From positions 1-64,000 of the forward strand of contig JABSQZ010000027.1 of assembly GCA_013215505.1 (NCBI GenBank): 64,000 nucleotides of DNA, in the 5' to 3' direction. Each line of letters opens with the position of its first letter. Position 1 is the stretch's first letter. The DNA comes from Oceanospirillaceae bacterium. GTDB taxonomy: Bacteria > Pseudomonadota > Gammaproteobacteria > Pseudomonadales > Balneatricaceae. Both the position numbers and the translations under genes were made by a program. Of this stretch, positions 5,453-61,513 are shown piece by piece. The notes under the pieces are model-generated. The model did no database searches and was not told the DNA's origin. It saw nothing but the letters and a program-made list of their open reading frames with translations.

Positions 5453-6598
5453 ATGTCAGTTAAAAAGTATCTATATACGGCGTTAGCCATCGGTTTTATT
5501 CCACTTGGAGTTTTTATGTTTGATTTAAGTTTTGCCAGCAAACCCAGCGATAATGAGAACCAAAAAACCCAGTTACTTATTGCACAGTCAACGCAATTTA
5601 ATGGCAAAAAATTTGAAAATATTGGCCAGGTACAGTCTAAACCAGATTTTTGGTCAATGATTAAAATGTATATGTTTGACAAGCAAAAGCCAGCTAGTCC
5701 GCCATCGCCGATTGAAGTGCAAGCTATTACTAAAGCACAGTTATTGGAGTTGCAGGAAAACCAGCAGGGCCAGGGGCTGAGCTTTTTTCGCCTGGGGCAC
5801 TCGACACTGTTGATATTATTAGACGGCGACTTCTGGCTAACGGATCCAGTATTTTCAGAGCGCGCCTCGCCGTTCCAGTTTGTCGGTCCAAAGCGTTTTC
5901 ACCAATCGCCGATTAGCATCGATGACCTGCCGGATATTAAAGGGGTAATTTTGTCTCACAATCATTACGACCATCTGGACAAAGCCGCGATCGGGAAACT
6001 CAAAGATAAAGTCGAACATTTTTATACGCCACTGGGTGTGGGTGAAGCGCTGATAAAGTGGGGGGTCGCCCGAGAGAAAATTAGCCAGCTGGACTGGTGG
6101 CAATCGATTAAAGTCAATCAAACTACTTTGACCGCCACCCCGGCACAACATTTTTCCGGTCGGGCATTCAGTGATGGTAATCAATCGCTCTGGTCCAGCT
6201 GGTCGGTAAAGGCCGAGCACGGCAGTTTCTTCTTCTCAGGAGATACTGGCTATTTTGATCAGTTTGCGGTGATCGGTGAAAAGCTTGGCCCTTTCGATGT
6301 TGCATTTATGGAAACCGGTGCCTACAACCACATGTGGTCAGAGATTCATATGCATCCACAGCAGTCGGCTCAGGCGCATTTAGATGTAAAAGCAAAATAC
6401 ATGGTGCCTATCCACAATGGCACCTTTGATTTAAGTTTACACACTTGGACAGATCCCTTTGAGCGCATAAGTGAATGGGCTGGAAAATACAATATAGCGT
6501 TACTGACGCCGAAAATGGGCCAGCTAGTGCAATTGCAAGATGGGCAAAGTTTAAGTGAAAAAACAGAGCGCTGGTGGCAAAATATTGCAGCGAATTAA
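5453..6598 (+). CDS. Metallo-beta-lactamase-fold hydrolase (UlaG/NAPE-PLD-like, RomA type)
   Basis: The 381-residue protein has an N-terminal hydrophobic segment (about 8-28) acting as signal or anchor, so it is probably periplasmic or membrane bound. The MBL signature is H169-N-H171-Y-D173-H174; further metal ligands are in FFFSGDTGYFDQF and in MVPIHNGTFDLS. LGHSTLLILLDG and LTDPVFSERASP match the UlaG-like/NAPE-PLD-like subgroup that includes RomA. Substrate is unknown; lipid-phosphodiester and lactone hydrolases occur in the group. GAGG precedes the ATG. The gene sits under a TetR operator and is followed 30 bases later by a serine hydrolase, likely co-transcribed. Confidence 0.8.
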   Translation: MSVKKYLYTALAIGFIPLGVFMFDLSFASKPSDNENQKTQLLIAQSTQFNGKKFENIGQVQSKPDFWSMIKMYMFDKQKPASPPSPIEVQAITKAQLLELQENQQGQGLSFFRLGHSTLLILLDGDFWLTDPVFSERASPFQFVGPKRFHQSPISIDDLPDIKGVILSHNHYDHLDKAAIGKLKDKVEHFYTPLGVGEALIKWGVAREKISQLDWWQSIKVNQTTLTATPAQHFSGRAFSDGNQSLWSSWSVKAEHGSFFFSGDTGYFDQFAVIGEKLGPFDVAFMETGAYNHMWSEIHMHPQQSAQAHLDVKAKYMVPIHNGTFDLSLHTWTDPFERISEWAGKYNIALLTPKMGQLVQLQDGQSLSEKTERWWQNIAAN

Positions 6599-6628
6599 TA
6601 GCTATAAATCACTACACTGGAGAGTAAA

Positions 6629-7771
6629 GTGTCCCTAGTCGAGAACATTCAGCAGAGCATAATGGCAGTCGAACAGGGCTTGCGGCCATTTGTGCGCCAG
6701 CGAGAAACGAATCTGCAAGCAGCGGGCCATATAGATTTGCGGATGCAGCAATTGCATGTACAGGGGCTTAGTTGCGCGGTTGTTAAGCAAGGTGAAATAC
6801 ACTGGGCTAAACAGTATGGCGTTTTAGACCTTATCAGCCAGACTCCGGTTAGGGGTGAGACACAATTTAACGCTTGTTCAATGAGTAAATTAGTCACATC
6901 TATGCTGGTGTTAGTGTTAGTAGGCCAAGGTCGGTTAGATCTGGATGAGGATGTTAACCGGTACTTAGTTAGCTGGAAAATGTCGGTTAATCAGTACAGT
7001 GTTGAGCAGGCGGTCACATTGCGACATCTGCTCAATCACCAGTCAGGTATCGTTGATGGCAGTGATAGTTTTGGCCCGTTAGCTGTGGTTGATCAGCCTC
7101 CCTCTGCACTGGAGATTTTGCAGGCAAGCGGTCCCTGTAATCCTAAACCGGTGCAGTTGGAACATACACCAGGGAGTAAGTTTGAATATTCGGATGCTGG
7201 CTACTGTGTGATTGAACAGTTACTGATAGATGTGACAGGGCAGCCTTTTGAGCAATTGGCTCAGCGGTTGTTGTTTACTCCTCTGGGAATGGCTAATAGC
7301 CATTTTCAGCTTAGCCATCATTACCCTGAGGATAGGGCGATGGTATCTGCTCATGATAAACAGGGCCAGTTAATTACTGGAGCGACTGTCTATCCTTATA
7401 GCTGTGGATCTGGACTATGGTCAACCCCAAGCGACTTGTGTTTGTTGGCGATTGAATTAGGGTTGCAATTGCAAGGCGAGGGCAAGTTAGCAGTTCCTGC
7501 GGCGCTCGCGTCACAAATGCTTAATGGCCAAGGCGCCGAGCCATGGGCGGGTCTGGGAGTTTTTTTGGACACTGATATGCAGCAGCTGAATATCAGTTCA
7601 CTGGGTTGGGGAGTTGGGGCGCAGTCCATGTTGCTGGCATTTCCCTATCTCAACGCTGCAATTGTGGTGATGATTAACACTGATCTGGGCATTCATCAGC
7701 ATAAAGCTATTATTGGTGAATTGATAAGAAGCGCAGTAAACCATTACCAGTGGCCGTTAAGTGATACCTGA
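6629..7771 (+). CDS. Serine hydrolase, beta-lactamase/class C-like family
   Basis: The 380-residue protein starts at GTG after GGAGAG. It has the penicillin-binding fold signature S84-M-S-K87 (catalytic Ser and Lys) and Y187-S-D189 at the place of the usual Y-x-N; the third motif appears as GWGVG near the C-terminus. FTPLGMANSHF is a typical family segment. No signal peptide is apparent, so the protein is likely cytoplasmic and more probably an esterase or peptidase-like hydrolase than a true beta-lactamase. It follows the MBL-fold hydrolase by 30 bases and probably shares its TetR-controlled transcript. Confidence 0.8.
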   Translation: MSLVENIQQSIMAVEQGLRPFVRQRETNLQAAGHIDLRMQQLHVQGLSCAVVKQGEIHWAKQYGVLDLISQTPVRGETQFNACSMSKLVTSMLVLVLVGQGRLDLDEDVNRYLVSWKMSVNQYSVEQAVTLRHLLNHQSGIVDGSDSFGPLAVVDQPPSALEILQASGPCNPKPVQLEHTPGSKFEYSDAGYCVIEQLLIDVTGQPFEQLAQRLLFTPLGMANSHFQLSHHYPEDRAMVSAHDKQGQLITGATVYPYSCGSGLWSTPSDLCLLAIELGLQLQGEGKLAVPAALASQMLNGQGAEPWAGLGVFLDTDMQQLNISSLGWGVGAQSMLLAFPYLNAAIVVMINTDLGIHQHKAIIGELIRSAVNHYQWPLSDT

Positions 7772-7817
7772 GCCAGTCTGCTATGACTCTGAATTAGTTG
7801 GCGCCTGACTCGATAAA

Positions 7818-8762
7818 TTAAGCCTTGATCAGCCGGGCTGCCAGTAGCTTAAGCTCGACATGTAGTTGACTGGGCCGATGGACTTTAAAGTTAAAGGGCC
7901 AATGCGCTAACTCCCTGGCAAACCAGCCTAAGTCACTGCACTGGTGCTTTAATAACACCCCTGAATCTACTTGCGATAATTCACCCAAGGTTTTACTCAG
8001 ATAGCTTTCAGCTGTTGCTAAATCGGTGTCCAGTAGTACTTCTACATAATGCTCCCTGGTTATGTTTGCCAATGATTTTTCTATATGGCTAATGATATTT
8101 TTTGTTTCAGGGGCATTAAAATTTGTAGTCAGTGTCTGCAGTTGTGCGATGCGCTCAACAGTAAAGGTTCTGATGTCATTTCGTAGTTGGCAGTAGGCGA
8201 CTAAATAGTAACGACCCAGATAAAATGCTACCCCGTAGGGATCAACGATTCTGCTTGAACCCATCGCAGCGGCGCTCCGGTATTGTATCGACACTTGTTG
8301 TTGATTGGCTGCGGCACAGCTGAGTTCAAGTACAGTGCTGTTGTTAGCAGCAGTCACTGAACTCTTAGCCACATCAATAGTGATCGCATGATGAATAGCG
8401 CGTACTTTTTTACGCAGAGGCTCGGGCATCACTCGCTCTAGTTTAGAGCGGGCAGAGGCAAAAGCGCTATCGCTTTGCACTAATCCACATTGTTGTGCCG
8501 CCAGTAACCCCAGGCTCAGTGCCATCGCTTCATTATCTTCAAACATCATCGGTGGCAGTTTAAATCCCGGCATTAATGAATAGCCACCGTAGCGACCACG
8601 TTCACTCATAATAGGGATGCCAAGATCTTCCAGAGCAGCTATATAACGTCGCAGTGTGCGTCTGTCTAAATTGAGCCTTGAAGCTAATTCTGCGCCACTG
8701 AGGCGGCCGTGAGATTGCAGTAGTTCCAGTACTGCTAAGATGCGTGTCGTGGATTGGGCCAT
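7818..8762 (-). CDS. HTH-WYL domain transcriptional regulator
   Basis: The 314-residue protein has an N-terminal DeoR/HTH_11-type winged helix (about 5-55: RILAVLELLQ, LSGAELASRLNLDRRTLRRY), then a WYL ligand-sensing domain (about 140-215: VSIQYRSA, VDPYGVAFYLGRYYLVAYC) and a C-terminal extension. Such proteins act as ligand-responsive, often single-component regulators. It is transcribed convergently with the serine hydrolase, with 46 bases between stop codons, and has no obvious target next to it. Confidence 0.85.
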   Translation of the reverse strand: MAQSTTRILAVLELLQSHGRLSGAELASRLNLDRRTLRRYIAALEDLGIPIMSERGRYGGYSLMPGFKLPPMMFEDNEAMALSLGLLAAQQCGLVQSDSAFASARSKLERVMPEPLRKKVRAIHHAITIDVAKSSVTAANNSTVLELSCAAANQQQVSIQYRSAAAMGSSRIVDPYGVAFYLGRYYLVAYCQLRNDIRTFTVERIAQLQTLTTNFNAPETKNIISHIEKSLANITREHYVEVLLDTDLATAESYLSKTLGELSQVDSGVLLKHQCSDLGWFARELAHWPFNFKVHRPSQLHVELKLLAARLIKA

Positions 8763-19540: not shown

Positions 19541-20473
19541 TTAATCTAAGATGTAGCTGTTAACGTCAGGCTTAATTTTGATCACGTCGTTATCCAGTAA
19601 AAACTGCGCGTAGTTGTCGTAACGTGATTTGTCAGCGGCTTTAGGGCGCAGGGCGAAACGCACTAAAGTATCTTGCCAGGCCAAACGGTTCAGCTCAGTG
19701 TCGAGTTTTTTGCCGTCGCCGTAAGCTTTGAATAGCTGCCACGCCTGATCCGGGTGGTTGACAGTGTATTGAGTAGCCAGCTCCAGGGCGCGGTTAAACT
19801 TGGCGACCATCTCTTGGTCGACGCTGTTGCTGTTGGCGACTACCACTAGCTCGTCGTAAGGTGGCACGCCTTCCTCTTCTACGTAGAAGCCTTTACCCTC
19901 GAAACCTTCCATCTTTAACTGGTGCATTTCAAAGTTGCGGTAGGCGCCGTAGATGGCATCGACTTTACCTGCGGCCAGTGAAGCGGAAAGCGACCAGCCG
20001 ACATTGATCAGCTCTACATCATCTATGCTGATGCCGTTGTTTTCGAGCATAGTGCCGACAGTGGCATTGACTAAACCGCCATCGAAGGCGAAGCCGATTT
20101 TTTTACCTTTTAGGTCGGCCAGGCTGTTGTAGCCCTTGTCCGCCAGAACCATCACAGTGTTGAGTGGGGTGGCGATCAAGGTGGAGACGCGGGTCAGGGG
20201 CAACTGTTCTGCGACGTCGCGAATCAGCTGGGGCTGGTAGGTAACGGCCAGGTCAAATTTTCCGGCGGCCACTAGTTTGGGGGGCATGCTAGGGTCGGCA
20301 GGTTCATGAATTTCCAGCTCCAGGCCCTGAGCTTTAAACAACCCCTGCTGCTTGGCGACTATGATGGGGCCGTGATCCGGGTTGACGAACCAGTCCAACA
20401 TTAAAGTGACTTTTTGTGCAAAAGCGCTTTGGCTTATCAAGACTAAAGTCAATGAAACTATTAGTTTTTTCAT
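19541..20473 (-). CDS. thiY: Thiamin-precursor periplasmic binding protein ThiY
   Basis: The 310-residue protein has a signal peptide (1-19, ending SAFA) and an NMT1/THI5-like binding domain beginning LMLDWFVNPDHGPIIVAK, the typical opening of pyrimidine-binding ThiY proteins. It delivers formylaminopyrimidine or HMP-like precursors to the ThiXZ importer. The reading frame is open for another 65 codons upstream inside thiX, but ATG 20473 after GAGAG is the natural start and gives the signal peptide. Its place between thiX and tenA agrees with base-degraded thiamin salvage. Confidence 0.92.
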   Translation of the reverse strand: MKKLIVSLTLVLISQSAFAQKVTLMLDWFVNPDHGPIIVAKQQGLFKAQGLELEIHEPADPSMPPKLVAAGKFDLAVTYQPQLIRDVAEQLPLTRVSTLIATPLNTVMVLADKGYNSLADLKGKKIGFAFDGGLVNATVGTMLENNGISIDDVELINVGWSLSASLAAGKVDAIYGAYRNFEMHQLKMEGFEGKGFYVEEEGVPPYDELVVVANSNSVDQEMVAKFNRALELATQYTVNHPDQAWQLFKAYGDGKKLDTELNRLAWQDTLVRFALRPKAADKSRYDNYAQFLLDNDVIKIKPDVNSYILD

Positions 20474-20487
20474 GCTAACTCTCTCAG

Positions 20488-21282
20488 TTAATGGCCCGTT
20501 TGTTCGCGGTGCCAGGGGATTAAAGCTTTCAGTAGTAAATCGGTAAAGTAATAGAGGGTGATGGAAAACAGCGCCAGAATAAACAGCGCTGCAAACATGT
20601 CGGCGATCTGCATGCGCGCATTGGCCTGCAACATCAGATAACCCAGGCCACCGGATGAACCGACCCACTCACCCACCACCGCGCCAATAGGGGCCACAAC
20701 GGCGGCCACGCGAATGCCTGAGGCCAGAGTCGGCAGTGCCGCCGGCAGTCGGATGTGCCACAGCTGCCGCCATTTGTTGGCCCCCATAGTGTGCGCCAGA
20801 TCCAGATAGCCGATGGGGGTGTAGCGCAAGCCGTCAAAGCAGGTAGTGGTCACAGGGAAAAAGATAATCAGCGCCGCCATTATCACTTTGGAGGTCATGC
20901 CGTAGCCGAACCAGAGCATTAAAATAGGCGCCAGGGCAAACACCGGGATCGCCTGACTGGCGATTAAAACCGGCAGTAGCCAGCGCCGCAGCGGCTTGAA
21001 CAACAGCATTTGCAGCGCAAACAGCAGCCCCATCAGCAAACCGAGTATCAGCCCCAGCACTATTTCGCTCATAGTGATCAAGCTGTGACTCAGCAGCAGC
21101 TGGTAGCTGCCGATTAACTTTTCCAGCACCAGCAGTGGCGGCGGTAAAATAAAAGGTGGCATCTCAAAATACACCACTATTACCTGCCACAGCAGTAAGA
21201 TAACCGCAGTAGTGATCGCCAGCCGGCAGAGGCTGGAGAAACTGCTGCCCAGTGTGGCTGTGTTAAAGGTGATTTTAGCCAT
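20488..21282 (-). CDS. thiX: Thiamin-precursor ABC transporter permease ThiX
   Basis: The 264-residue inner-membrane permease has about six membrane helices and the ABC coupling (EAA) motif GANKWRQLWHIRLPAALP. The start is the ATG at 21282, which overlaps the end of thiZ by 8 bases (ATGGCTAA). It is of the SsuC/TauC class used by NMT1-type binding proteins. It works with ThiY and ThiZ. Confidence 0.92.
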   Translation of the reverse strand: MAKITFNTATLGSSFSSLCRLAITTAVILLLWQVIVVYFEMPPFILPPPLLVLEKLIGSYQLLLSHSLITMSEIVLGLILGLLMGLLFALQMLLFKPLRRWLLPVLIASQAIPVFALAPILMLWFGYGMTSKVIMAALIIFFPVTTTCFDGLRYTPIGYLDLAHTMGANKWRQLWHIRLPAALPTLASGIRVAAVVAPIGAVVGEWVGSSGGLGYLMLQANARMQIADMFAALFILALFSITLYYFTDLLLKALIPWHREQTGH

Positions 21283-22018
21283 GTTGCACCTGCATTTTTT
21301 GCAGCAAACTCTGCTGGTAGTGACCCAGTTCAGCATCTACTGCTCTGGGGGGGAGCGAGTCGGGTAAGGGCAGGGGTAACAGCTGCTGATCGGCGCTAAA
21401 GAGATAGAGCTGGTCGCCCAGGCGCAGTGCCTCCTGCGGGTCATGAGTGATTAACAATACAGTGCGATCCTGCAGCACTTGCGCGGCTAAATTCTGTAAC
21501 TTGTAGCGATTGACGGCATCCAGTGCTGAAAAAGGCTCGTCCATCAGTACTATCGGCGTGTCCTGCATCAACGTTCGGGCCAGTGCCACTCGCTGGCGCA
21601 TACCGCCGGAGAGCTGATCGGGCAGTGATTTTTCGATACCTGACAGATTTAGCTGTTCCAGTAACTGTCTGGCTCGGTGTTGCTGTGCAGCGCTGACCTT
21701 GCCGGTTAACAACCTCGCCTTAAGGCAGACGTTGTCCAATACGTTCAGCCAAGGTAACAGCAGGTCTTGCTGGGCCATGTAGGAGATGCGGTTGTCGATG
21801 CTCAGGCCATCGCTGCAACTTATCTCGCCACTGAGCTGGTGACTGGAGTCGATCAGACCTGCCAGCAGGCGCAGTAAACTGGTTTTACCGCACCCGCTGG
21901 GTCCCAGCAGGCAGGTCCATTTTTTTGCTGGCAAGTTCAAGTTCAGCCCAGAAAAAGTAGCACGCGCTGCACCGGCATACTGCAGCGAAGCGTCGCTTAG
22001 TTGCACACAGATGCTCAT
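21275..22018 (-). CDS. thiZ: Thiamin-precursor ABC transporter ATP-binding protein ThiZ
   Basis: The 247-residue ATPase has Walker A GPSGCGKTSLL, Q-loop MAQQDLLLPW, signature LSGGMRQRVALART and Walker B VLMDEPFSALD. It powers the ThiX permease. The ATG overlaps the thiD stop by four bases (ATGA), showing translational coupling. Confidence 0.92.
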   Translation of the reverse strand: MSICVQLSDASLQYAGAARATFSGLNLNLPAKKWTCLLGPSGCGKTSLLRLLAGLIDSSHQLSGEISCSDGLSIDNRISYMAQQDLLLPWLNVLDNVCLKARLLTGKVSAAQQHRARQLLEQLNLSGIEKSLPDQLSGGMRQRVALARTLMQDTPIVLMDEPFSALDAVNRYKLQNLAAQVLQDRTVLLITHDPQEALRLGDQLYLFSADQQLLPLPLPDSLPPRAVDAELGHYQQSLLQKMQVQHG

Positions 22019-22908
22019 CGCTTGGGCTGGGCGTAAAAGTGGTGTACCGGACCGGCACCACTGCCAATCTGCAGTTGATCTGCCTGTTTGATGGCCTCAC
22101 TGATGTAGCCCTTGGCACTGCCGATGGCGCTGGTCAGGTCCTGACCTTGTGCCAGGTAAGAGGCGATCGCCGAAGAGAGCGTGCAGCCGGTGCCGTGAGT
22201 GTTTTTGGTGTCGATACGCGCGCTGCTGAAAATTTGCTGTTGGCTGTGGCTCAGCCAGTAGTCGCTGCTGGTGGCCCCCGTTAAGTGGCCGCCTTTGACC
22301 AGTACCGACTGGCTGCCCAGCTCGAGCAGCTCGCGACACAGTTGCAAGCCATCTTCGACTGACTGGCCCGGGTCTCTGCCCAGCAGTGCCAGCGCCTCGG
22401 GAATATTGGGGGTGATCACAGTGGCCAGTGGCAATAACTCATAGATCAAGCTCGAGATAGCCTCTCTGGCCAGTAACAGGTCGCCGCTGGTGGCCACCAT
22501 TACCGGGTCTAAGACGATGTGTTTAACGGGATGTTTTTTCAGGGCAGTGGCAACGGTTTTGATGGTTGCCGCGTCGCCTAGCATGCCTATTTTGACGACA
22601 TCTACGGCGATATCACTGAACACAGCAGCAAATTGTTGCTCGATGAAAGCTTGCTCTATGGGCAGTACCCCAGTGACGCCTAAGGTGTTTTGTGCGGTGA
22701 GTGCGGTGATAACTGTGCAGGCGTAGCTGCCGGTGGCCGAAATGGTTTTAATGTCAGCTTGGATGCCGGCACCGCCGCCACTGTCTGATCCCGCGACCGT
22801 CAGCACTATGGGAGTGTGGTTTTTAACTTGAGATGCAGCGCGTTGCGATTGCAGCGCGGCAGATTGCTTGAGATTGTCCACTGTAATTCCTAAATTTTGC
22901 GCGGACAA
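22015..22908 (-). CDS. thiD: Hydroxymethylpyrimidine/phosphomethylpyrimidine kinase
   Basis: The 297-residue ribokinase-fold enzyme phosphorylates HMP and HMP-P in thiamin synthesis. AGSDSGGGAGIQADIKT near residue 40 and the catalytic NTHGTGCTLSSAIA near residue 240 are clear. The protein has about 30 extra N-terminal residues compared with usual ThiD, so a downstream start is possible, but no better ribosome site was found. It is the first gene after the TPP riboswitch. Confidence 0.93.
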   Translation of the reverse strand: MSAQNLGITVDNLKQSAALQSQRAASQVKNHTPIVLTVAGSDSGGGAGIQADIKTISATGSYACTVITALTAQNTLGVTGVLPIEQAFIEQQFAAVFSDIAVDVVKIGMLGDAATIKTVATALKKHPVKHIVLDPVMVATSGDLLLAREAISSLIYELLPLATVITPNIPEALALLGRDPGQSVEDGLQLCRELLELGSQSVLVKGGHLTGATSSDYWLSHSQQQIFSSARIDTKNTHGTGCTLSSAIASYLAQGQDLTSAIGSAKGYISEAIKQADQLQIGSGAGPVHHFYAQPKR

Positions 22909-22935
22909 CCTGAGGCACGAATGCTATCAATCAAG

Positions 22936-23019
22936 TTAGTTCCCTACGCCAATATGAGTTGGATCAGGTTCAGCGGGTCCAGTATTAAATACCATCTCAG
23001 CCCTAAGGCCCCCCGACTA
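22936..23019 (-). promoter_or_regulatory. TPP riboswitch (THI element)
   Basis: On the minus strand the sequence reads GGGGGGCC, then GGGCTGAGATGG, a variable stem, then ACCCGCTGAACCTGATC and ATTGGCGTAGGGAACTAA. The CTGAGA box, the CTGAACCTGATC block and the GCGTAGGGAA block are the conserved elements of the TPP-binding riboswitch. It precedes thiD by about 28 bases, so it probably controls translation or termination of the whole thiD-thiZ-thiX-thiY-tenA operon in response to thiamin pyrophosphate. Confidence 0.96.
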
Positions 23020-23424
23020 ACGAGCGCGTATCATAGACGTATTAAATTTTTGATGCAAATGCATTGATAAATAGATGGCGTTTTCGGGGGCCAGAGTGTT
23101 TTGCAACCGGGTTAATGTTTGCTGGGCTAGCGGTATACAGAGGCAGTTCGAAGGGAGAAAATCTGTCGTAAATAATAGCCAGAGAATATAATTCACCGTC
23201 CACCAAGAGCGCTCTATGCTGGAGTTAGACTGCACTTGGGGAAGAGGGGATTTAGTGTTTACTATGTTTGGTTCCAAGTGTCAGGCATAACCCCTAATAA
23301 CTTAGATAAGAGTATTTGATAAAGATACAGATGAGAGGATTGGACACATGCAGGCATTTCAAAAGTACTGGGAAGATGTGTTTATGGAACTAAAATGCGT
23401 CTGGAAAACTAAGATGTAGCACAT
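23020..23424. other. Intergenic region upstream of the thiamin operon
   Basis: Contains the operon promoter by position. No gene is supported; the minus-strand frame at 23017-23277 overlaps the riboswitch and has no family resemblance. Confidence 0.4.
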
Positions 23425-23917: not shown

Positions 23918-25576
23918 ATGAAAATAAGTGCCAAATTAATTTCGGTGAGATTTTTGTTTCTCTTTATCATGTTATTGGGAACCTTTCTGGCCTCCTATTT
24001 TTATGCCATACCTCATGTCGAACAACATGAAAAAAGCCAGGGACTTAAAGATATCTCAAGGGTAATACACCGAACTGATCAGGAACTCGATTTGCTGCGG
24101 TTTCTGGCGACAGGTTGGGGGGAGTGGGATGATACCTATGCTTATATCAATGATCGTAATAAGGCCTATGAGAAATCAAATTTAGGCCATAAGACACTTT
24201 TGGAGATGGAAATAGATTTCATCTTTATTGTTAAGGTAAATGGTCAGGTGATCTGGAAACAGTTTTCAGAAAAGATTAAAAAGTTTGCAACACCAGCGCT
24301 TTGGCAAAAGAATAACTGGGGTGAACAGCATCCTTTCATTGCTCTGATGTCCGATCAGGAGAAGGGATTGATATATAGCGATTTTGGCGCTTTGCTGGTT
24401 GCAGGATCGCAAATTGTCACTAGTCAGGGAAAGGGCGACAGCCGCGGTTATTTCTTTTTTGGTAAGCTAATATCTAATGAATTAGTCAAGAAATTCTCAC
24501 AAGATCTTGAATTTCAGATTGAAATGTCGATTGCTGAAAATCAGGATGCAGATGACGTGCACTTTGTGTCTCAGCATAAGAAAATTGTATATGGCAAAAT
24601 AAAGCTTGCTAACAGCAGCACTCATTCCCTCTCAATCAGTATTTTTCAATCACGGCCATTTTATCAAGAGGCGATAAAGGCCATAAAATATAATCTTCTG
24701 GTTGTTCTGGGCTTAGGTGTTTTATCTTCAGTGATCACTTTTTTTATTCTAAAAAAAATACTTATCAATCCAATCATACAGTTGCGGCAACAAGCCTTCA
24801 AATTTGGCAGAGATCAAAGTTCGATACCGATTAAGTTATTAAACAGTAATGATGAACTGGGACATTTATCCGCTTCCCTAGTGAATATGGCGAATGAACT
24901 TAAAAGAATCTGGGGACTCCAGGAGCAAGAAAAGAATGAATATTTGACTGCCAGTAATACCGATGCACTGACTCAATTAAATAACAGACGCTGCATGATA
25001 TCTATCCTCAGCAAACAACAGACATGGAGTACGCCTAAACATTGGTCATTTCTCATGTTGGATATCGATTATTTTAAAAATATTAATGACAAATGGGGCC
25101 ACGATGTAGGTGACACAGTGTTGCAACAGTTTTCCTCGATATTAAAAGAAGTCTGCCGCGGTTCGGATATTATATTTCGCTCCGGAGGAGAGGAATTTGT
25201 GGTGGTCTGTGAAGGGGCAACTCAAGTGCAGGGTTGCCTGGTCGTTGAGAGGATAAGAAAAGCGGTTGAAATCTATGAGTTTGGCCCCGGGGGCAAGAGC
25301 TTCAACGTCACTTGCTCAATTGGCTTTTATTCAATGTACAACACTAAACCTAATGTAAACTGGGAGATCAAACTAAAACTAGCGGATTGTGCTATGTATG
25401 CTGCCAAAAACAGCGGCAGGAACACTTGGGTGGGGTTGGCGATCAACCAGCAGTCACCGTTGCTTGATAAATACAAGTTACCTGGCGATGTTGATTCGTT
25501 AGTGGCTGATATTAAAAGTGAGAAGTTGCTGGTTTTGTCGCCACAACCAGTGCCTGAAGATGTCCAGTGGCGTTGA
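23918..25576 (+). CDS. CHASE4-HAMP-GGDEF diguanylate cyclase
   Basis: The 552-residue inner-membrane protein has TM1 (about 10-30), a periplasmic CHASE4 sensory domain (about 45-250, with WGEWDDTYAYI), TM2 (about 262-285), a HAMP region and a GGDEF domain (about 350-510). The catalytic signature is RSGGEEFVVV, and DALTQLNNRR is a typical domain opening, so it should make cyclic di-GMP. No EAL domain is present. An RxxD product-inhibition site is not obvious. It lies next to orphan solute-binding protein genes, which may feed signals to such sensors; that link is conjecture. Confidence 0.9.
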   Translation: MKISAKLISVRFLFLFIMLLGTFLASYFYAIPHVEQHEKSQGLKDISRVIHRTDQELDLLRFLATGWGEWDDTYAYINDRNKAYEKSNLGHKTLLEMEIDFIFIVKVNGQVIWKQFSEKIKKFATPALWQKNNWGEQHPFIALMSDQEKGLIYSDFGALLVAGSQIVTSQGKGDSRGYFFFGKLISNELVKKFSQDLEFQIEMSIAENQDADDVHFVSQHKKIVYGKIKLANSSTHSLSISIFQSRPFYQEAIKAIKYNLLVVLGLGVLSSVITFFILKKILINPIIQLRQQAFKFGRDQSSIPIKLLNSNDELGHLSASLVNMANELKRIWGLQEQEKNEYLTASNTDALTQLNNRRCMISILSKQQTWSTPKHWSFLMLDIDYFKNINDKWGHDVGDTVLQQFSSILKEVCRGSDIIFRSGGEEFVVVCEGATQVQGCLVVERIRKAVEIYEFGPGGKSFNVTCSIGFYSMYNTKPNVNWEIKLKLADCAMYAAKNSGRNTWVGLAINQQSPLLDKYKLPGDVDSLVADIKSEKLLVLSPQPVPEDVQWR

Positions 25577-25660: not shown

Positions 25661-26413
25661 CTACAATCTGGAAGAATTGTTTACCGCCCTAACAATCTTT
25701 GCATAACTACCATCCTGTTTCATTTTCTCAATAGAGGTGGCAATTTCCTCCGCTAACTGATGATGTTTTTTATGTATATAGGAGTAAATTCTGACCGGGT
25801 GTACCTTGGTTATTTTTATGATATTTGAAAAATGACTGCGACCTGCTAACAAACTATCCCCCAGCCTGCTTTCAGATACCACTACATCTATAAGACCATC
25901 AGATAGCATTTTGAAGGCATGGGTATCGCTGTTGGCCACTACTATCTGTTTTTTTTGCAAAAATTGGTGAAGAATTTTCTGCATGTTAATTCTACCCCTT
26001 GTATAGGCTACCCGGTAGCCTTTGAGGTCATTCCAAGTTTCGAATTTTATCTCTTGGGTGGCAAATACTGCCTGCCAGATAGTCAGCATTTCAGATTCAA
26101 TCCTAATTAGGCCAGGGTATTTACCGCCACTGACTTTATGAAAATCATAAACCCGGTGTAGCTCACCGTCTGAGGCTCCAGTATTTGAATATAATAGCGA
26201 TCTTAGACTAGGGTAAGGAACCGCTTTAAACCTAATGCCGTTGCGTCTAAAGGCCTCAGTTAATATAGGTACGATTATACGGGGTTGATGATAATGAAGA
26301 GGCTGGCTGGCGGTAAAAGTAATTTCTTCTACGGCTTGGCTGGACAAGGGGGTAAACGTAAATAAAATGACGAGGAAAAGGCAGCATAGTTTTATGCCAG
26401 AAGGGTTTTGCAT
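25661..26413 (-). CDS. Periplasmic solute-binding protein (SBP_bac_3-like), orphan
   Basis: The 250-residue protein has a signal peptide (about 1-28, ending SSQA) and a type-3 solute-binding fold: IIVPILTEAFRRNGIRFKAV, VAYTRGRINMQKIL in the second lobe and IEKMKQDGSYAKIV at the C-terminus. The usual arginine/aspartate ligand pair is not evident, so it may bind something other than an amino acid. There is no permease or ATPase nearby. It is convergent with the GGDEF gene. Confidence 0.7.
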   Translation of the reverse strand: MQNPSGIKLCCLFLVILFTFTPLSSQAVEEITFTASQPLHYHQPRIIVPILTEAFRRNGIRFKAVPYPSLRSLLYSNTGASDGELHRVYDFHKVSGGKYPGLIRIESEMLTIWQAVFATQEIKFETWNDLKGYRVAYTRGRINMQKILHQFLQKKQIVVANSDTHAFKMLSDGLIDVVVSESRLGDSLLAGRSHFSNIIKITKVHPVRIYSYIHKKHHQLAEEIATSIEKMKQDGSYAKIVRAVNNSSRL

Positions 26414-26959
26414 GTTCGGCCCGTGTTGGGTTAACGTTAAGTAAAAACGCCATCCTTAGCGCCATAGCCACCATCAATCGTTATCGCTGTAACACTTATA
26501 TAAGCGTCCGGATCAGATCTGATGCTTTAAAAATGATCTCTACTGCACATTCCTATACGAAAGCGAGGGAGCCTACAGGTAATCTTGCTAGCTTAGCCAT
26601 TTATACCTCCTTTACATCTGTTTATTAATAGACAAAATCGGGCTTTTAATCATTCTGAACTGGCACGAATAAAGACGTACAAGAAAGACTCCAGATATTA
26701 ACAAGATGATTAAAGGGATATATTTGTTCAGGTTGTCGGTGCCGGCAGTTTAGCAGCTGCGGTGAAATCCATCGTCGGCGAGCAAGGACATAAGTGCACC
26801 TGAGTATCGACCGGTCGTGTTACTCCCTGATCATCTGAAACTTATCATAAAACATAATTGCGAAATTTTCCCGTAAAAAGAGGATTTTGTACGAAACGCT
26901 GACCTTCGTATACTACCTGATAGAACAATTATTAATGGCCCAATTTGGATGACCATCCT
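26414..26959. other. Intergenic region with decayed coding sequence
   Basis: Contains the SDR relic at 26439-26518. The rest, up to the octamer array, shows no intact gene; a few short frames between 26735 and 26900 look protein-like but were not recognised. Confidence 0.35.
26439..26518 (-). pseudogene. C-terminal relic of a short-chain dehydrogenase
   Basis: The minus strand reads SDPDAYISVTAITIDGGYGA followed by KDGVFT and a stop. The SD.A.YI....I..DGGY pattern is the usual C-terminus of SDR-family enzymes. A stop lies a few codons upstream and no other part of the gene is visible, so only about 26 codons remain. Confidence 0.45.
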
Positions 26960-27079
26960 CTCAAAACCTCAAAACCTCAAAACCTCAAAACCTCAAAACC
27001 TCAAAACCTCAAAACCTCAAAATCTCAAGACCTCAAGACCTCAAGACCTCAAGACCTCAAGACCTCAAGACCTCAAGAC
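26960..27079. repeat. Octamer tandem array in two homogeneous blocks
   Basis: Fifteen 8-base units: seven CTCAAAAC (26960-27015), one CTCAAAAT (27016-27023), then seven CTCAAGAC (27024-27079). The unit length is not a multiple of three, so the array is open in several frames and encodes repeats such as LKTSKPQN; I regard these frames as non-coding. Confidence 0.95.
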
Positions 27080-27512
27080 CTCGAACATAGTAAAATTCCC
27101 CGACATCAACATGTCTGCTATTGGTCTATAGCGTCGATTTCGACTGACTGTTTTTGCCTTAGTAAATCAGCCTGGATAATCGGAGGAATTGACAAATACC
27201 TGAAATTTAGAAGGTATTTTGAGAATCAGAAAAAGCTGACTAGAAAGTTAAAGGCATCTCATATATATAGAATGCCAGGCCGGATTGTCGGGCCGCTTAG
27301 GTTAAATCATCTAAATTACACTATTGCTATAAGCAGTGAATTCGCAGCATTTAGCTATTGTGTTGGGTCTAGGACTATTTCTTGAATTTGGAAAAAGAGC
27401 CAAAATCTGGATTTAATCGGATATTTGTTCACCTGTAATTGGTACACAATTAGATCTTGTTGGCCTATTTCCCAACAAAATAACAAGTTACAACAAAGGA
27501 TAAAGGTGCGTA
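27080..27512. other. Leader region of the ethylene-receptor-like kinase
   Basis: No gene is supported. An inverted repeat TTGTTGG (27457-27463) and CCAACAA (27472-27478) lies 34 bases before the kinase start and may be an operator or a leader hairpin. AAAGGATAAAGG just before the ATG serves as ribosome binding site. Confidence 0.45.
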
Positions 27513-28703
27513 ATGGAATCAACATCGATTTTTAACAATGATAGCTATATGCCACATGGGGTCTGCTACTTATGGCAGCCCGAAATTTTGTGGACCACAG
27601 CCATATCTGATGTCGTCATAGCCCTGGCTTATTTTTCCATTACCGCTGCAATGATTGTGTTTGTGAAACGCCGCAAAGACTTACCTTATCCCTGGTTTTT
27701 TATCCTGGCGGGCTCGATAATCTTTGTTGCCTGTGGTTTATCTCATTTAGTCAGCGCAATCGTCATCTGGAAACCCATTTACGGTATATCAGCAGTTGTA
27801 AAAGCAATCACCGCAGTCGCCTCGTTGACGACCGGTATTGTTATCTGGTTTGTATTGCCTTTTTTCCTCAAACTACCCAGCCCAAGCATGTTAGAAAAGA
27901 AAAATGAAGCCTTACAAACATCGATTAAAACATTACATTTTGCCCAAGATCAGCTGGTGGAATCCAGAAAAATGGCGTCTTTAGGCGGCTTAGTCACTGG
28001 CGTGGCCCATGAGATTAACACCCCGGTAGGCACTGCAGTGACAGCGGTGACACATTTGATGGATTTCACCGATAACTTGAAATTTAGTCTTCTGACAACT
28101 GCGATGTCGGACACAACAATGAACAAGTTTCTAAAAGAAGTCACTATATGTACCAACATGGTCAGTAAAAATTTAAACAGAGCCTCTGATATTATTATGA
28201 GCTTTAAACAAGTTGCCGTTGATCAGTCAGACAAACATATACGGGTATATAACGCGAAAAGATATATTGACGGGGTGTTGATGAACCTGAGACCAATGGT
28301 TGGGCAAACACCTTATGAAATCACTATGAGCTGCGATGATCATATCGAAATTAATGGTGACCCGGGAGATATCACCCAAATTTTAACCAATTTAGTGGTC
28401 AATTCTTTACAACATGGCCTTGATGGGAAGGAGGAGGGGCTGATTACTATAGAAATTACCCAGCAAGATCAGACTATCTTGATCCATTACCAAGACAATG
28501 GTCGCGGTATGAACAAAAAGCACCTTGAGCGTATATATGAACCTTTTTTCACCACTAAACGTGGTTCAGGCAACAGTGGTTTAGGTATGCATATTGTTTA
28601 TAATTTAGTGACACAATCACTAAATGGATCTATAGATTGTGTCAGTGAAGTAGATCATGGTGTACAGTTTTCGATTAAGTTTGGTGCCAATAGCAGTAAA
28701 TAG
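27513..28703 (+). CDS. Histidine kinase with ethylene-receptor-like sensor domain
   Basis: The 396-residue protein starts with three membrane helices (about 28-51, 60-82, 90-118) that closely resemble the ethylene-binding domain of plant ETR1. ISD33VVIALAY40FS matches ETR1 ISDFFIAIAYFS, and C74-G-L-S-H78 matches the copper-ligand motif C65-G-A-T-H69. A short coiled linker leads to a histidine kinase core with the H-box GVAHEINTPVG (H166), the N-box around NLVVNSLQHG, and DNGRGM and GLGMHIV. There is no GAF or receiver domain, so a separate response regulator is needed; none is adjacent. It is monocistronic. Binding of ethylene through Cu(I) is inferred from conserved residues. Confidence 0.85.
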   Translation: MESTSIFNNDSYMPHGVCYLWQPEILWTTAISDVVIALAYFSITAAMIVFVKRRKDLPYPWFFILAGSIIFVACGLSHLVSAIVIWKPIYGISAVVKAITAVASLTTGIVIWFVLPFFLKLPSPSMLEKKNEALQTSIKTLHFAQDQLVESRKMASLGGLVTGVAHEINTPVGTAVTAVTHLMDFTDNLKFSLLTTAMSDTTMNKFLKEVTICTNMVSKNLNRASDIIMSFKQVAVDQSDKHIRVYNAKRYIDGVLMNLRPMVGQTPYEITMSCDDHIEINGDPGDITQILTNLVVNSLQHGLDGKEEGLITIEITQQDQTILIHYQDNGRGMNKKHLERIYEPFFTTKRGSGNSGLGMHIVYNLVTQSLNGSIDCVSEVDHGVQFSIKFGANSSK

Positions 28704-29152: not shown

Positions 29153-29890
29153 TCAGAATCCATGCTGTAGCAAAATTTTATTCATTTCCCCTGTTTCAGT
29201 AAGCTTTTTTAGGCCTAAATTAAACGCCTGCAGAATTTTCTGAAAATCCTTTGCCTGCTTTGAAATCATCAGATATTGATTCAGAACTTCAATGGGAGGG
29301 GCAATCCATTCTAGCTTATGGGCCTGTCCTACTAACTGGGTACCTATAATATATTTTCCCAACGTTTTGTCTGTTAAAACTAAATCAATACGTCCCATCG
29401 TCAGCAGGAGGAGATTTTCCCTGTCCGTTGCGGATTCGATGGTTTGCAAATTAGCTTCTTTGAACCCAAGAGGACGAATGTATCCCCTGACAACTCCTAT
29501 CTTGTATGATTTTAAATCTTCGAATGAATTAAATTTGATGTATTCTCCTTTTCGTTTGTAGAAACCAATCTTGTTCTGATACAGGGGGGCGGAAAAAACG
29601 AACCATTTCTCCCTGTCCTTGGTGTACCAAGCAGTGAATAGGCCATCATAGGTCCCTTGTTTTGCTCCCTCCAGACCTCTTGCCCATGGAACAAACTTTA
29701 ACTTCACTGCATACCCTACTTTATTAAATGCCTGGACAATAATTTCCGTGATAGGTCCTCCATTCTCTAAGCTTTCCCCATAGTAAGGAGGGTACTCCAC
29801 ATAAGCTAAGACCACCTTGTTTTCATAGGCAGCTGCCGGCAATGGATAAATCAAACAAATCAATATTGTGACCAATAATTTAAAGCTCAA
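29153..29890 (-). CDS. Periplasmic solute-binding protein (SBP_bac_3), orphan
   Basis: The 245-residue protein has a signal peptide (about 1-20, ending AAAYE) and a complete type-3 solute-binding domain: VVLAYVEYPPYYGESLENGG, KFVPWARGLEGAKQGTYDGL split by the usual hinge, IGVVRGYIRPLGF, and GLKKLTETGEMNKILLQHGF at the C-terminus. The PWARG motif is shared with the second half of the tandem protein at 2748. No transporter genes are adjacent. A perfect palindrome lies 62 bases upstream of the start (29952-29965). Confidence 0.82.
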   Translation of the reverse strand: MSFKLLVTILICLIYPLPAAAYENKVVLAYVEYPPYYGESLENGGPITEIIVQAFNKVGYAVKLKFVPWARGLEGAKQGTYDGLFTAWYTKDREKWFVFSAPLYQNKIGFYKRKGEYIKFNSFEDLKSYKIGVVRGYIRPLGFKEANLQTIESATDRENLLLLTMGRIDLVLTDKTLGKYIIGTQLVGQAHKLEWIAPPIEVLNQYLMISKQAKDFQKILQAFNLGLKKLTETGEMNKILLQHGF

Positions 29891-57385: not shown

Positions 57386-60300
57386 TTAAACGCGTTTAAA
57401 TAACCAAATGCGCATGATGGATAACAATTTGTCAAAATCAATAGGTTTGGTAATGTATTCAGAAGCTCCAGAGTCAAAACACTTCTGCCTATCTTCGGGC
57501 ATGGTCTTTGCTGTTAAGGCGATAATCGGAATTGATTTATATACTTGATTTTGTCTGATCAGCTTTATTGCCTGATTACCATCCATCACCGGCATCATGA
57601 TGTCCATTAACACCAATTCAATATCATTATTTTGTTCAAGAAATTTAACGGCCTCTTTACCATTATTGGCTAATTCAACTTCTAATCCAGATTCAATTAA
57701 CCTTTTCGATAATGCATAGGAGTTGCGCATATCGTCATCTACCAGGAGTATTTTTCGATTTTGTAATATGAGATCTTCATCGTGGTGTAGGCTTATGCTC
57801 TCTTTTTCTCCCTGTTTTTGTTGCCCTGCTAAATGGTGCATAAACAAAGAAACATCATCTAATAAACGCTCCGCAGAACCTACACCTTTGATGACAATGG
57901 TAGACGAATAATGGCTTAATTCCGCTTGTTCTTGTTCAGTGATTTCTTTGCCGGTGTAGATGATTATCGGAGGAATAGAGGTTGTTTTCTGTGTGTTGAT
58001 TCTTTTAAGCACCTCAAAACCTGTCATATCTGGCAAGCCAAGGTCTAAAATTACACAGTCATATTTACCGGATGAAATTTCACTACAGCCGGCCTCTCCT
58101 GTTGCCACACTGGTAATAGACATTTTACTATTTTCCAGTAATCTAGTGGTGGCAATACGGTTTCCAGTGTCATCTTCAATGATCAGAATATTTCGGACTT
58201 CGCTGCTAGATATTGAGGTTATTTTGCTTAATACTTCGAGTAATTCTTGTTCTTTGACCGGTTTAACCAACAATCCGATTGCACCTTGGCCCAATACTTT
58301 AACTTTACCTTCAGTGTGCCCCGATATGACTTCAACCGGTATATGGCGTGTTTTAAGGCTAAATTTAAGTTGCTCTAATACCTGGTGCCCATCGATATCA
58401 GGCAGTTTTAGGTCCAGTATTATACCTTGAGGTTGATATTGCTGAGCCAGATAAATACCACTGCGTCCATCACCGGCCACTAAACATTTAAAACCTTGTG
58501 CAGTCGCCAAATCGCGCAGAATTTTGGCAAAATCTTTATCGTCATCAATGATTAATAAGGATTTATCACTGGCTTGAATATTGTTGCGTTGATCATTTAT
58601 GAAAAGTGGAAAGTTTTGAGCAGGCTGATTTTTCTGTTTGGTGTGTTTAACCATTTCCAGGGCTAAATGTGATGTTTTTGTATCCAGTGCCGGGTTTGCC
58701 AAACTATTATTTTGACTATCCATCATGCCTTCAGATATTTGGTAGGGAAGATATAAGGTGAAGATGCTGCCCTCCCCGGGCTCACTGAAGACCTGAATCT
58801 CACCGCCGAGTATTCGAGTTAGCTCCTTGGCAATAGTTAAACCTAAACCAGTACCGCCATAGCGCCGACTGGTCGAGCCATCTTGCTGTTGAAATGCTTC
58901 AAAGATCTCTTGTAGTTTATCATTGGGAATTCCTATACCTGTATCGACTACAGACAGGGCGAGGGTAGATTCATGGGTCAGAGAGCTAACGGTTAGCTGA
59001 GCTTCTGCGGAAACGGGGGCAATAGTTAAGGTTACAGTGCCAAACTCGGTGAATTTAAGTGCATTAGACAATAAGTTGCGCAATATTTGCTCGATTCTCT
59101 GGCCGTCAGTAGTAATTGATTTGGGGGTTGTATTGGCAATCTCGATCTTAAAATCCAACCCTTTGTCCGTGGCTATCGGCGTGAACATTTTTCGCATATT
59201 GCTGGTAAGGGTTTCAATGTGCACCTCTTCGAGATGCATGGTGAGCTTGCCCGCTTCTACTTTGGACAAATCCAGAATGTCATTTATGATGGTCAATAAA
59301 TTATGGCCGCTATCATGGATAATTTGGGCATCTTCCACTTGTGAATCATCTAAGTTGCCTTTTCTATTCTCTCCAAGTCCTTTAGCTAATAGCAGCAAAC
59401 TATTTAGCGGTGTTCTTAATTCGTGGCTCATATTGGCTAAGAATTCAGATTTATATTTACTCGCCAATGCTAAATCTCGCGCTTTTATGGTCAGCTCTGC
59501 TTGAGATTGTTCAATTTCTTGTTTTTGTTGTTGCAGAGAATCTTGTTTCTCTGATAGCTCTTCGTTGGAAACCTTTAATTGCTCACTTTGCTGTTTGAGA
59601 TTTCCTTCAGAGGCTTTTAATTTATCAGTTTGTTCCAAAAGCACTTCATTGGCCGATTTAAGTTCTTCCTGCTGATTTTGTAATACTGCGGATTGTTGTT
59701 TAGAACTGACTAATAACTCTTCAATGCGTTGCCGACCCAGTACGCTATTGATTATTACTCCCAACCCTAATGCCACTTGCGCCAATAAATCTTCCTGTAA
59801 TTGACTAAATGCTTTAAAAGTCGCCAACTCAATAACACCTAGACAACGCTCTTCATATAACACGGGCAGTACTATCACGTTTAAGGGTGCCAACTCGCCT
59901 AATCCGGAAGATATTTGAATGTATTCTTTAGGGACCTCAGTGAGGATAATGGTTTCTTTTTCCAGAGCACATTGACCAGCCAGCCCCTCACCGAGTTTCA
60001 GCCTGTTAGAGACGTTTTTGCGTTTCTTAAAGGCGTAAGTGCCCAGTAAGTTTAAGTAGGGCTCATCTGTACCCTCAGTGGTTAACACATAGAAAACCCC
60101 TTGTCCGGCATTTACCGCCGTGGCTAATGCTTTAATGACTTCTTTGCTCAACTGTCGTAAGTCTTCAATCCCCTGGGAAACATTGTTAACTTGGGCCACT
60201 TGGGTTTTTAGCCAGCTCTGATCCTCAACCACTTTTAAAGCTTGCGCACGGGCTTTTCCCTCTTCCTCAACTTTAAGATTACGCTCTTTCAATTGCTCGA

Positions 60301-61513
60301 TCATTTGCATTAATGCAATGCCTAAAGTATCGTCATTAGAAACTAGATCTACCTGTATATCCAAGTTACCTCGGGCTATTTCCTGCGCCAACTTAACTTT
60401 AATATTTAAAGCAGCCACCATGTCTTTTAACGCGGCAAAGATACCACTAGGTTCTGCATCTGATTGAAAATCAATATTTGTTTTGCCCAGCGCCACTTGT
60501 TGGGTGATCGCCATGATAGCAAGGGGTTCACCGCCGATAGGCTTCCTGATTTGTATAGTGATCAACCAGCTGAGAAATATCGAAAGGAAAAATCCGATAA
60601 TGGAAAAGATGGAAATAATCAGTAAAGCTTCTTCATTACTGGCCTGTACTTTAGGTCCTAAAATATCTTGATCTGCTTTCACCGACAGTTTTACATCTTC
60701 AGCGGCCTTAGATATAGCGGGGCCAATTCCATCCAGTTGTTGATTGATAATTTCATTGCGCTTAATAATCAGACTATTTACGGCTTTAAAGTGCTGTCGA
60801 TACAATTCTCTAACTTTTTTAAATTCGGCAAATAAAGTTTTTCTGGTTGGGTTATCTAACTCTCTTTCTAAACTGACAATTTCTTTATCAATGTTTGCCC
60901 CAATTTCTAGTTCAAAGCGGTTCGCGTCTTTATCTGCATTGGTATTTAAAAACTTACTGGCAAAGAGTCGAGCGAGTAACACATGCTCCTGAATACGGCC
61001 AGCGTAGTAAGAGGCTTCAGGGTCCTGATCTTCAAAAGCGCTGGTCATAATGGCAGTCAGCTTAGTGCGCATCGCCAGCCCGGTTGGATCTAAGTTATTA
61101 AATACTAAGTCATCACGCTGTTGTTTGAAGGCGATCACTTGATCAAAATTTCTTGCATAATCGTGAATCGAATCGCTAACGATAGCCACATTTCGTGCGC
61201 GTTCAGCTTGTTGTATCTCTACTTCTGCCTCACGCAAAAACTGTTCTAACTTAAGCAGACGTGATCGATAGTTGCTGACACTGCTCTGACTGCCTGTTTT
61301 AAGAAAATCTTTGACGTTTAGCCTAACCTGCAGCATGTTAGCTTGTAAACGGCCTGCAAGATTGGTATCCCGTGCCAATAGCCGGTATTCTCTAAAGCCT
61401 TCTGATGCATCATTTAGTGCGATATAAGATAAGGTTGAAGTTATGATCATGATGGTAACCACCATGCCAAATCCTATACCTAACATGGTTGATAACTTCA
61501 TATTGTCAAACAT
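57386..61513 (-). CDS. Large hybrid sensor histidine kinase with three receiver domains
   Basis: The 1375-residue protein runs: TM1 (about 10-30), a helical bimodular-type periplasmic domain, TM2 (about 290-315), HAMP, GAF (about 455-600), a coiled coil, HisKA (EFLANMSHELRTPLNSLLLL), HATPase (DTGIGIPNDKL, GTGLGLTIAKEL) and three receivers: LLIIDDDKDFAK, ILIIEDDTGNRIA and ILLVDDDMRNSYALSKRL with phospho-acceptor Asps in ILDLKLPDIDG, ILDLGLPDMTG and LMDIMMPVMDG. This arrangement is a phosphorelay hub. It is co-directional with cheR downstream and with a paralogous sensor upstream. Confidence 0.93.
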   Translation of the reverse strand: MFDNMKLSTMLGIGFGMVVTIMIITSTLSYIALNDASEGFREYRLLARDTNLAGRLQANMLQVRLNVKDFLKTGSQSSVSNYRSRLLKLEQFLREAEVEIQQAERARNVAIVSDSIHDYARNFDQVIAFKQQRDDLVFNNLDPTGLAMRTKLTAIMTSAFEDQDPEASYYAGRIQEHVLLARLFASKFLNTNADKDANRFELEIGANIDKEIVSLERELDNPTRKTLFAEFKKVRELYRQHFKAVNSLIIKRNEIINQQLDGIGPAISKAAEDVKLSVKADQDILGPKVQASNEEALLIISIFSIIGFFLSIFLSWLITIQIRKPIGGEPLAIMAITQQVALGKTNIDFQSDAEPSGIFAALKDMVAALNIKVKLAQEIARGNLDIQVDLVSNDDTLGIALMQMIEQLKERNLKVEEEGKARAQALKVVEDQSWLKTQVAQVNNVSQGIEDLRQLSKEVIKALATAVNAGQGVFYVLTTEGTDEPYLNLLGTYAFKKRKNVSNRLKLGEGLAGQCALEKETIILTEVPKEYIQISSGLGELAPLNVIVLPVLYEERCLGVIELATFKAFSQLQEDLLAQVALGLGVIINSVLGRQRIEELLVSSKQQSAVLQNQQEELKSANEVLLEQTDKLKASEGNLKQQSEQLKVSNEELSEKQDSLQQQKQEIEQSQAELTIKARDLALASKYKSEFLANMSHELRTPLNSLLLLAKGLGENRKGNLDDSQVEDAQIIHDSGHNLLTIINDILDLSKVEAGKLTMHLEEVHIETLTSNMRKMFTPIATDKGLDFKIEIANTTPKSITTDGQRIEQILRNLLSNALKFTEFGTVTLTIAPVSAEAQLTVSSLTHESTLALSVVDTGIGIPNDKLQEIFEAFQQQDGSTSRRYGGTGLGLTIAKELTRILGGEIQVFSEPGEGSIFTLYLPYQISEGMMDSQNNSLANPALDTKTSHLALEMVKHTKQKNQPAQNFPLFINDQRNNIQASDKSLLIIDDDKDFAKILRDLATAQGFKCLVAGDGRSGIYLAQQYQPQGIILDLKLPDIDGHQVLEQLKFSLKTRHIPVEVISGHTEGKVKVLGQGAIGLLVKPVKEQELLEVLSKITSISSSEVRNILIIEDDTGNRIATTRLLENSKMSITSVATGEAGCSEISSGKYDCVILDLGLPDMTGFEVLKRINTQKTTSIPPIIIYTGKEITEQEQAELSHYSSTIVIKGVGSAERLLDDVSLFMHHLAGQQKQGEKESISLHHDEDLILQNRKILLVDDDMRNSYALSKRLIESGLEVELANNGKEAVKFLEQNNDIELVLMDIMMPVMDGNQAIKLIRQNQVYKSIPIIALTAKTMPEDRQKCFDSGASEYITKPIDFDKLLSIMRIWLFKRV

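Follow-up and report, generated by a model that had tools for sequence, protein, structure and literature searches.

A branch of ETR1_N sensor kinases that keeps the expected copper-site residues of ethylene receptors and lacks a helix-1 proline

The 64,000-nucleotide stretch of Oceanospirillaceae DNA analysed here (the window) encodes a putative sensor histidine kinase, P0001, whose N-terminal domain belongs to the known ETR1_N family of ethylene receptors. As judged from alignments, what is new is that P0001 falls in a distinct branch of this family, TM2+1, in which the metal site is kept and the ethylene pocket is altered. We lean, with limited confidence, towards the reading that P0001 is a membrane-bound, copper-containing ETR1_N sensor kinase in which the residues of the metal site and of signal relay have been kept and the ligand pocket has been rebuilt. 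The features on which the discussion turns are the following.

27513..28703, + strand: ETR1_N sensor histidine kinase (P0001), ORF of 396 aa
27564..27566, + strand: Cys18, N-terminal Cys conserved in the family (domain alignment)
27585..27875, + strand: ETR1_N (PF25487) domain, residues 25-121 (Pfam profile)
27609..27611, + strand: Asp33, ETR1 D25 (domain alignment)
27630..27632, + strand: Tyr40, ETR1 Y32 (domain alignment)
27642..27644, + strand: Thr44, replacing ETR1 Pro36 (domain alignment)
27723..27725, + strand: Phe71, extra helix-2 residue, three before Cys74 (domain alignment)
27732..27734, + strand: Cys74, expected copper ligand, ETR1 C65 (domain alignment)
27744..27746, + strand: His78, expected copper ligand, ETR1 H69 (domain alignment)
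28008..28010, + strand: His166, expected phospho-accepting His (read from sequence)
28356..28682, + strand: HATPase_c domain, residues 282-390 (Pfam profile, E 4.4e-21)

The coordinates and strand of this ORF had been given in a preliminary description of the DNA and are borne out, as is its assignment to the ethylene-receptor family: the Pfam profile ETR1_N (PF25487) matches P0001 with an E-value of 1.8e-27 and 95.9 bits (cut-off 27) over profile positions 2-97 of 97. A match to an unrelated MHYT or 7TM family was also looked for; no sensor-domain family besides ETR1_N is found among the Pfam matches, even at E-values up to 10, where only ETR1_N and kinase-type domains appear, and an MHYT or 7TM identity is thus ruled out. 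No chain in our copy of the PDB matches the ETR1_N sensor profile. The HisKA/HATPase core described earlier is well supported in its HATPase_c part, and the kinase motifs are readable by eye (the box A-H166-E-I-N-T-P, and N, G1 and G2), but the HisKA profile reaches 13.5 bits only, below its cut-off of 26.9. Sensor and kinase are directly joined in P0001, with neither GAF nor receiver, as had been noticed, but this layout is not distinctive: in part of the loci surveyed, 58 of 173 distinct domains belong to ORFs 370-470 aa long, of which 42 fall outside the branch, and such ORFs, judging from their length, have no room for a GAF domain or a receiver, whose absence is common in the ETR1_N family. 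P0001 is the sole ETR1_N match found in the host genome (5.73 Mb, 98% complete), and a foreign base composition was not seen (G+C 0.410 for the gene versus 0.414 and 0.402 for its flanks).

Seven positions are required in ETR1, the seventh of which we take to be Y32. The excerpted text of PMC6586836 places I35, P36, I62, C65 and H69 among the essential residues, and mutating C65 or D25 abolishes binding according to PMC11819568. P0001 keeps Asp33, Tyr40, Ile43 (ETR1 Ile35), Cys74 and His78, and D33, Y40, C74 and H78 lie where the preliminary description had located them. Counted by offset from the Asp, P0001 registers with ETR1 at D33, Y40, I43 and Thr44 (the place of Pro36), and the Cys comes one place later. 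The one-residue change of spacing had been reported already. It consists of one added residue, Phe71, which sits inside helix 2 and puts a Phe at -3 of Cys74, a position occupied by Ile in 212 of the 223 domains outside the branch. Phe71 takes the place of Ile62 if the alignment is anchored on the Cys; in the MAFFT alignment Ile70 does so, and Phe71 is the insertion. On these alignments P0001 has another residue at Pro36, and its counterpart of Ile62 is either exchanged or displaced according to the register chosen, so that the earlier statements that all ETR1 positions are kept, and that the binding site is near-complete, went too far.

The family survey started from 301 loci, which yielded 264 ORFs and 244 distinct whole ETR1_N domains; it covers genome draws (every listed place), 80 of 570 confirmed relatives from a contig scan and two plasmid records, and leaves out as partial a gene in two pieces from genome G847 (L301). 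The helix-2 insertion is present in 21 of the 244 domains. In every one of these 21, D, Y, C and H are retained, the Cys is preceded by Phe at -3 and Gly at -7, and Pro36 is absent, with Thr in 17, Ala in three and Met in one; the Ile35 position is occupied by Ile (16), Val (2) or Phe (3). Outside the branch, 185 of 223 domains carry the full D-Y-I-P-I-C-H set, 208 have Pro36 and 218 have Phe at -7, the column of Phe71 is empty in all 223, and Phe at -3 occurs in two domains (L015 and L237). In a tree of 107 columns, computed without Pro36 and the helix-2 columns and with many inner forks unresolved, the 21 insertion-bearing domains form one branch (SH-aLRT 100). Further branch-specific positions are scattered along the domain, namely position 17 (Met or Val), P60, F62, S68, S77, A82 and I89, and, in its C-terminal part, G108, I111, F117, F118 and M126. 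K97, S104 and P116 (by offset ETR1 K91, S98 and P110) are kept inside and outside the branch, as is Cys18; S98 and P110 of ETR1 have been linked to signal transmission (PMC6586836), and the plant counterparts of Cys18 form a dimer disulphide (PMC6682694). Eight domains considered as branch members (L182, L229, L258, L260, L264, L268, L285 and L288) were rejected: their extra residue lies in the loop before helix 2 and their helix-2 motif is ordinary. The last six of these, from the Colwellia family, are encoded in frames of 185-194 aa, too short for a kinase.

The joint occurrence of insertion and Pro36 loss has to be read with caution. Fisher's test (p 1e-15) was set aside because one branch amounts to one event, and the association of the branch changes is not independent evidence since they arose in one branch. 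Moreover, 15 of the 223 domains outside the branch lack Pro36 without having the insertion, four of them with Thr and an ordinary helix-2 motif (L258, L260, L264 and L268), so that loss of this proline may be tolerated.

Most branch members resemble P0001 in layout: 17 of the 19 with wider loci consist of just a sensor and a kinase (L010 is truncated at a contig end). As read from their sequences, L127 is a sensor-PAS-kinase-receiver protein and L217 a sensor-kinase-receiver protein. One branch protein (L013/L022; L022 7965-9167) is possibly a pseudokinase receptor: its phospho-accepting His is replaced by Asn, and its G2 motif is unusual. Elsewhere in the window's order, key residues are changed in L014 (Cys to Trp), L011 (Tyr to Phe) and L015 (several), and the ETR1_N family probably includes members that do not bind ethylene.

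Within the host genus, the branch occurs in four of seven genomes (G000, G003, G005 and G006; not G001, G002 and G004). The corresponding draw of 193 genomes contained 14 ETR1_N-positive genomes, the other 10 of which belong to other families, one of them (G163) with the branch member L013. ETR1_N was detected in 46 of 390 genomes drawn from the order, with branch members in G000, G163, G253 (L238, 66% identical) and G413 (L239, 58%), and in 11 of 369 genomes drawn from the class, where the branch is confined to the window's genome. The draws around Colwellia marinimaniae gave 6 of 39 genomes in its genus, 90 of 395 in its family (ETR1_N match at E 1e-6) and 18 of 394 in its order. Six of the family matches are 76-83% identical to the window sensor and the remainder at most 52%, with the exception of a 41-residue piece in G847 (61%); three of the order genomes add branch members (61-79%).

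A tree of 15 branch proteins (without L127 and later finds) places the host-genus proteins among Colwellia-group sequences, as sister to L125 (91/86). This protein tree suggests that the branch gene may have been transferred. No shared neighbourhood was detected between the window and its genus-mates L017, L134 and L016 (E 1e-10, 60% of the shorter protein covered), the lone match being that of 25661-26413 to a protein of L016 (31%). Comparison of the window with three genus-mates gave dN of 0.03-0.08 and dS of 0.5-1.7 for the sensor part, versus 0.06-0.19 and 0.5-1.4 for the kinase part; by division, dN/dS within the genus is 0.04-0.11 for the sensor and 0.12-0.20 for the kinase. The sensor is under purifying selection and is the better kept half of the protein, which argues against decay.

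The kinase gene is flanked by two minus-strand genes for secreted proteins of solute-binding type, 29153-29890, which is SBP_bac_3 by Pfam, and 25661-26413, which has no Pfam match. An SBP_bac_3 gene is also located near the branch kinase of L132, and L134 contains a kinase of 1263 aa with SBP_bac_3 domains. In Colwellia relatives (L019, L129, L130, L131 and L132), the branch kinase lies beside clusters that, by sequence style, look devoted to sugar use, with genes for outer-membrane receptors, flavin halogenase-like proteins, glycosidases and transporters; profile checks of these clusters cover three periplasmic binding proteins only. A tandem array (26960-27082; 8-base unit, 15.4 copies, 97% matches) precedes the kinase gene by about 430 bases, and the overlapping ORF 26945-27385 is unlikely to be a real gene. 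In the loci of eight relatives, no exact repeats of 7-9 bases with at least four copies turned up in a simple search. Farther away, a TPP riboswitch (RF00059, 75.9 bits; 22924-23025, minus strand) lies directly upstream of minus-strand thiamine-like genes, among them 22015-22908 (-), a phosphomethylpyrimidine kinase by sequence style, and 19541-20668 (-), NMT1/THI5-like by Pfam.

The preliminary description was right that no output partner is encoded nearby: the flanking genes scanned with Pfam (23918-25576, 25661-26413 and 29153-29890) include no response regulator and no DUF3369/HD-GYP regulator, and the only receivers among the 14 Pfam-scanned window proteins are those of the hybrid kinase 57386-61513. 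Regulators of the DUF3369/HD-GYP type adjoin branch kinases in two loci, L018 and L021; their receiver matches (28.8 and 28.9 bits) are just under the Pfam cut-off of 30.2, and their genes are convergent with the kinase gene and not co-transcribed with it. The search for an orphan regulator in the host genome, proposed earlier, returned three DUF3369 proteins. L183 contains a candidate regulator (6314-7891), with no ORF matching the P0001 kinase core within the 14 kb taken; L184 is a regulator encoded behind a kinase whose core is 37% identical to that of P0001, and L185 is a protein of 288-388 aa. ORFs with a kinase core of the window type were found in 8 of the 33 DUF3369 loci examined (L136 and L183 overlap). 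DUF3369 proteins are, however, present in all seven host-genus genomes, including the three that lack the branch kinase. One candidate partner of P0001 is a regulator of this type, and P0001 may plausibly act through cyclic-di-GMP. On a conjugative Novosphingobium plasmid (NZ_CP063447.1; L142 2950-4417), a Cas9 gene adjoins the gene of an ETR1_N kinase, which overlaps that of a response regulator.

According to the reading that we favour, P0001 would act as a dimer, with Cys74 and His78 as the ligands of Cu(I). Ethylene or some other small neutral molecule would enter near helices 1 and 2 and alter kinase activity, and phosphate would pass from His166 to a response regulator of another locus, for which the DUF3369/HD-GYP type (cyclic-di-GMP phosphodiesterases) is the most likely. 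Since P0001 departs from plant receptors at pocket positions that these require for ethylene, ethylene should not be assumed to be its natural ligand. The MAFFT gap placement counts against a rebuilt pocket, since Ile70 would then still correspond to Ile62 and only an insertion would have occurred.

A serious alternative, to which we give about one chance in three, is that P0001 is an ordinary bacterial ethylene receptor in which a bulge in helix 2 and the missing proline of helix 1 offset each other and copper still binds ethylene. The metal-site and relay residues kept in all 21 domains and the strong purifying selection on the sensor fit this view, and compensation predicts that the insertion is never found together with Pro36, as is the case. 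Yet Pro36 and Ile62 are among the ETR1 essentials named in PMC6586836, a Pro36Leu change makes the tomato NR receptor ethylene-insensitive (PMC6727826), and no ethylene response of branch hosts was found in the literature searched.

Among the matches listed, the named branch loci come from Osedax symbiont Rs2 (L016), Oceanospirillaceae DT_74 (L017), Pseudomonadales ALOHA_DT_135 (L018), Colwellia marinimaniae MTCD1 (L019), Colwellia ALOHA_DT_126 (L020), Colwellia DT_19 (L021) and Oceanospirillaceae C15_61_62_5 (L022). MTCD1 comes from amphipods at 10,918 m (PMC7542103), and the Osedax symbionts Rs1 and Rs2 belong to the Nitrincolaceae, genus Rs1 (PMC10199937). The deep-sea origin of Osedax is taken from a title in the reference list of PMC10199937, and 'DT' probably designates the 4,000-m traps of Station ALOHA, going by the excerpted text of PMC9426571. 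Six of these seven named carriers thus look deep-sea, which is a lead rather than an established association. This habitat, the branch-specific changes along the whole domain and the Asn in place of the phospho-accepting His in L013/L022 could fit a loss of gas binding, with the domain serving as a membrane or dimer module of a constitutive kinase or of a sensor of membrane state (e.g., pressure or cold), but we find this improbable: exact retention of D, Y, C and H in all 21 domains is hard to explain without metal binding, and other divergent members do lose metal-site residues (Cys to Trp in L014; L015).

Extending the favoured reading of a copper-containing sensor with a rebuilt pocket, we tentatively propose, and regard as rather doubtful in its entirety, that TM2+1 is a natural re-engineering: a copper-centred receptor of largely deep-sea gammaproteobacteria whose pocket, with the proline lost and a Phe inserted beside the copper site, would serve a non-ethylene small molecule, or ethylene at high pressure, and control cyclic-di-GMP.

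In the open-licence literature searched, we recognised no paper on TM2+1. Ethylene binding has already been shown for AzoEtr1 and SynEtr1. With its metal site intact and Pro36 naturally missing, TM2+1 may allow copper binding to be told apart from ethylene selectivity, and it lends itself to testing directly which residues determine the choice of ligand in the ETR1_N family. Should the ligand not be ethylene, the family would represent a broader class of gas sensors based on copper, and calling the branch proteins 'Ethylene receptor 1-like' would be misleading.

The closest functional comparison is AzoEtr1 of Azospirillum brasilense (PLoS Genet 2025, PMC11819568), likewise a proteobacterial ETR1_N sensor kinase without a fused receiver, for which ethylene binding is proven. 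Its D35, C75 and H79 correspond to D33, C74 and H78 of P0001, but the distance from D to C is 40 residues in AzoEtr1, as in ETR1 (D25 to C65), and 41 in P0001. Unlike P0001, AzoEtr1 has all seven required residues, a PAS domain and a receiver-only gene overlapping its 3' end (PMC11819568). SynEtr1 of Synechocystis and plant ETR1 have the sensor family and the metal-site residues in common with P0001, which resembles cyanobacterial forms in its single N-terminal Cys (PMC6682694); both have the same seven residues as AzoEtr1, Pro36 included (PMC11819568), whereas P0001 lacks Pro36. Their GAF or PAS domains, and the receivers present in part of them, have no counterpart in P0001. Tomato NR (SlETR3 Pro36Leu) is altered at the same position as P0001, but it is a mutant of an otherwise ordinary receptor, whereas the change in P0001 is fixed throughout its branch together with an extra helix-2 residue. 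The nearest relatives are the Colwellia ETR1_N kinases, including that of C. marinimaniae MTCD1, which belong to the same branch, share 76-83% identity in the sensor (genus and family draws) and mostly have the same layout, in gene neighbourhoods unlike that of the window.
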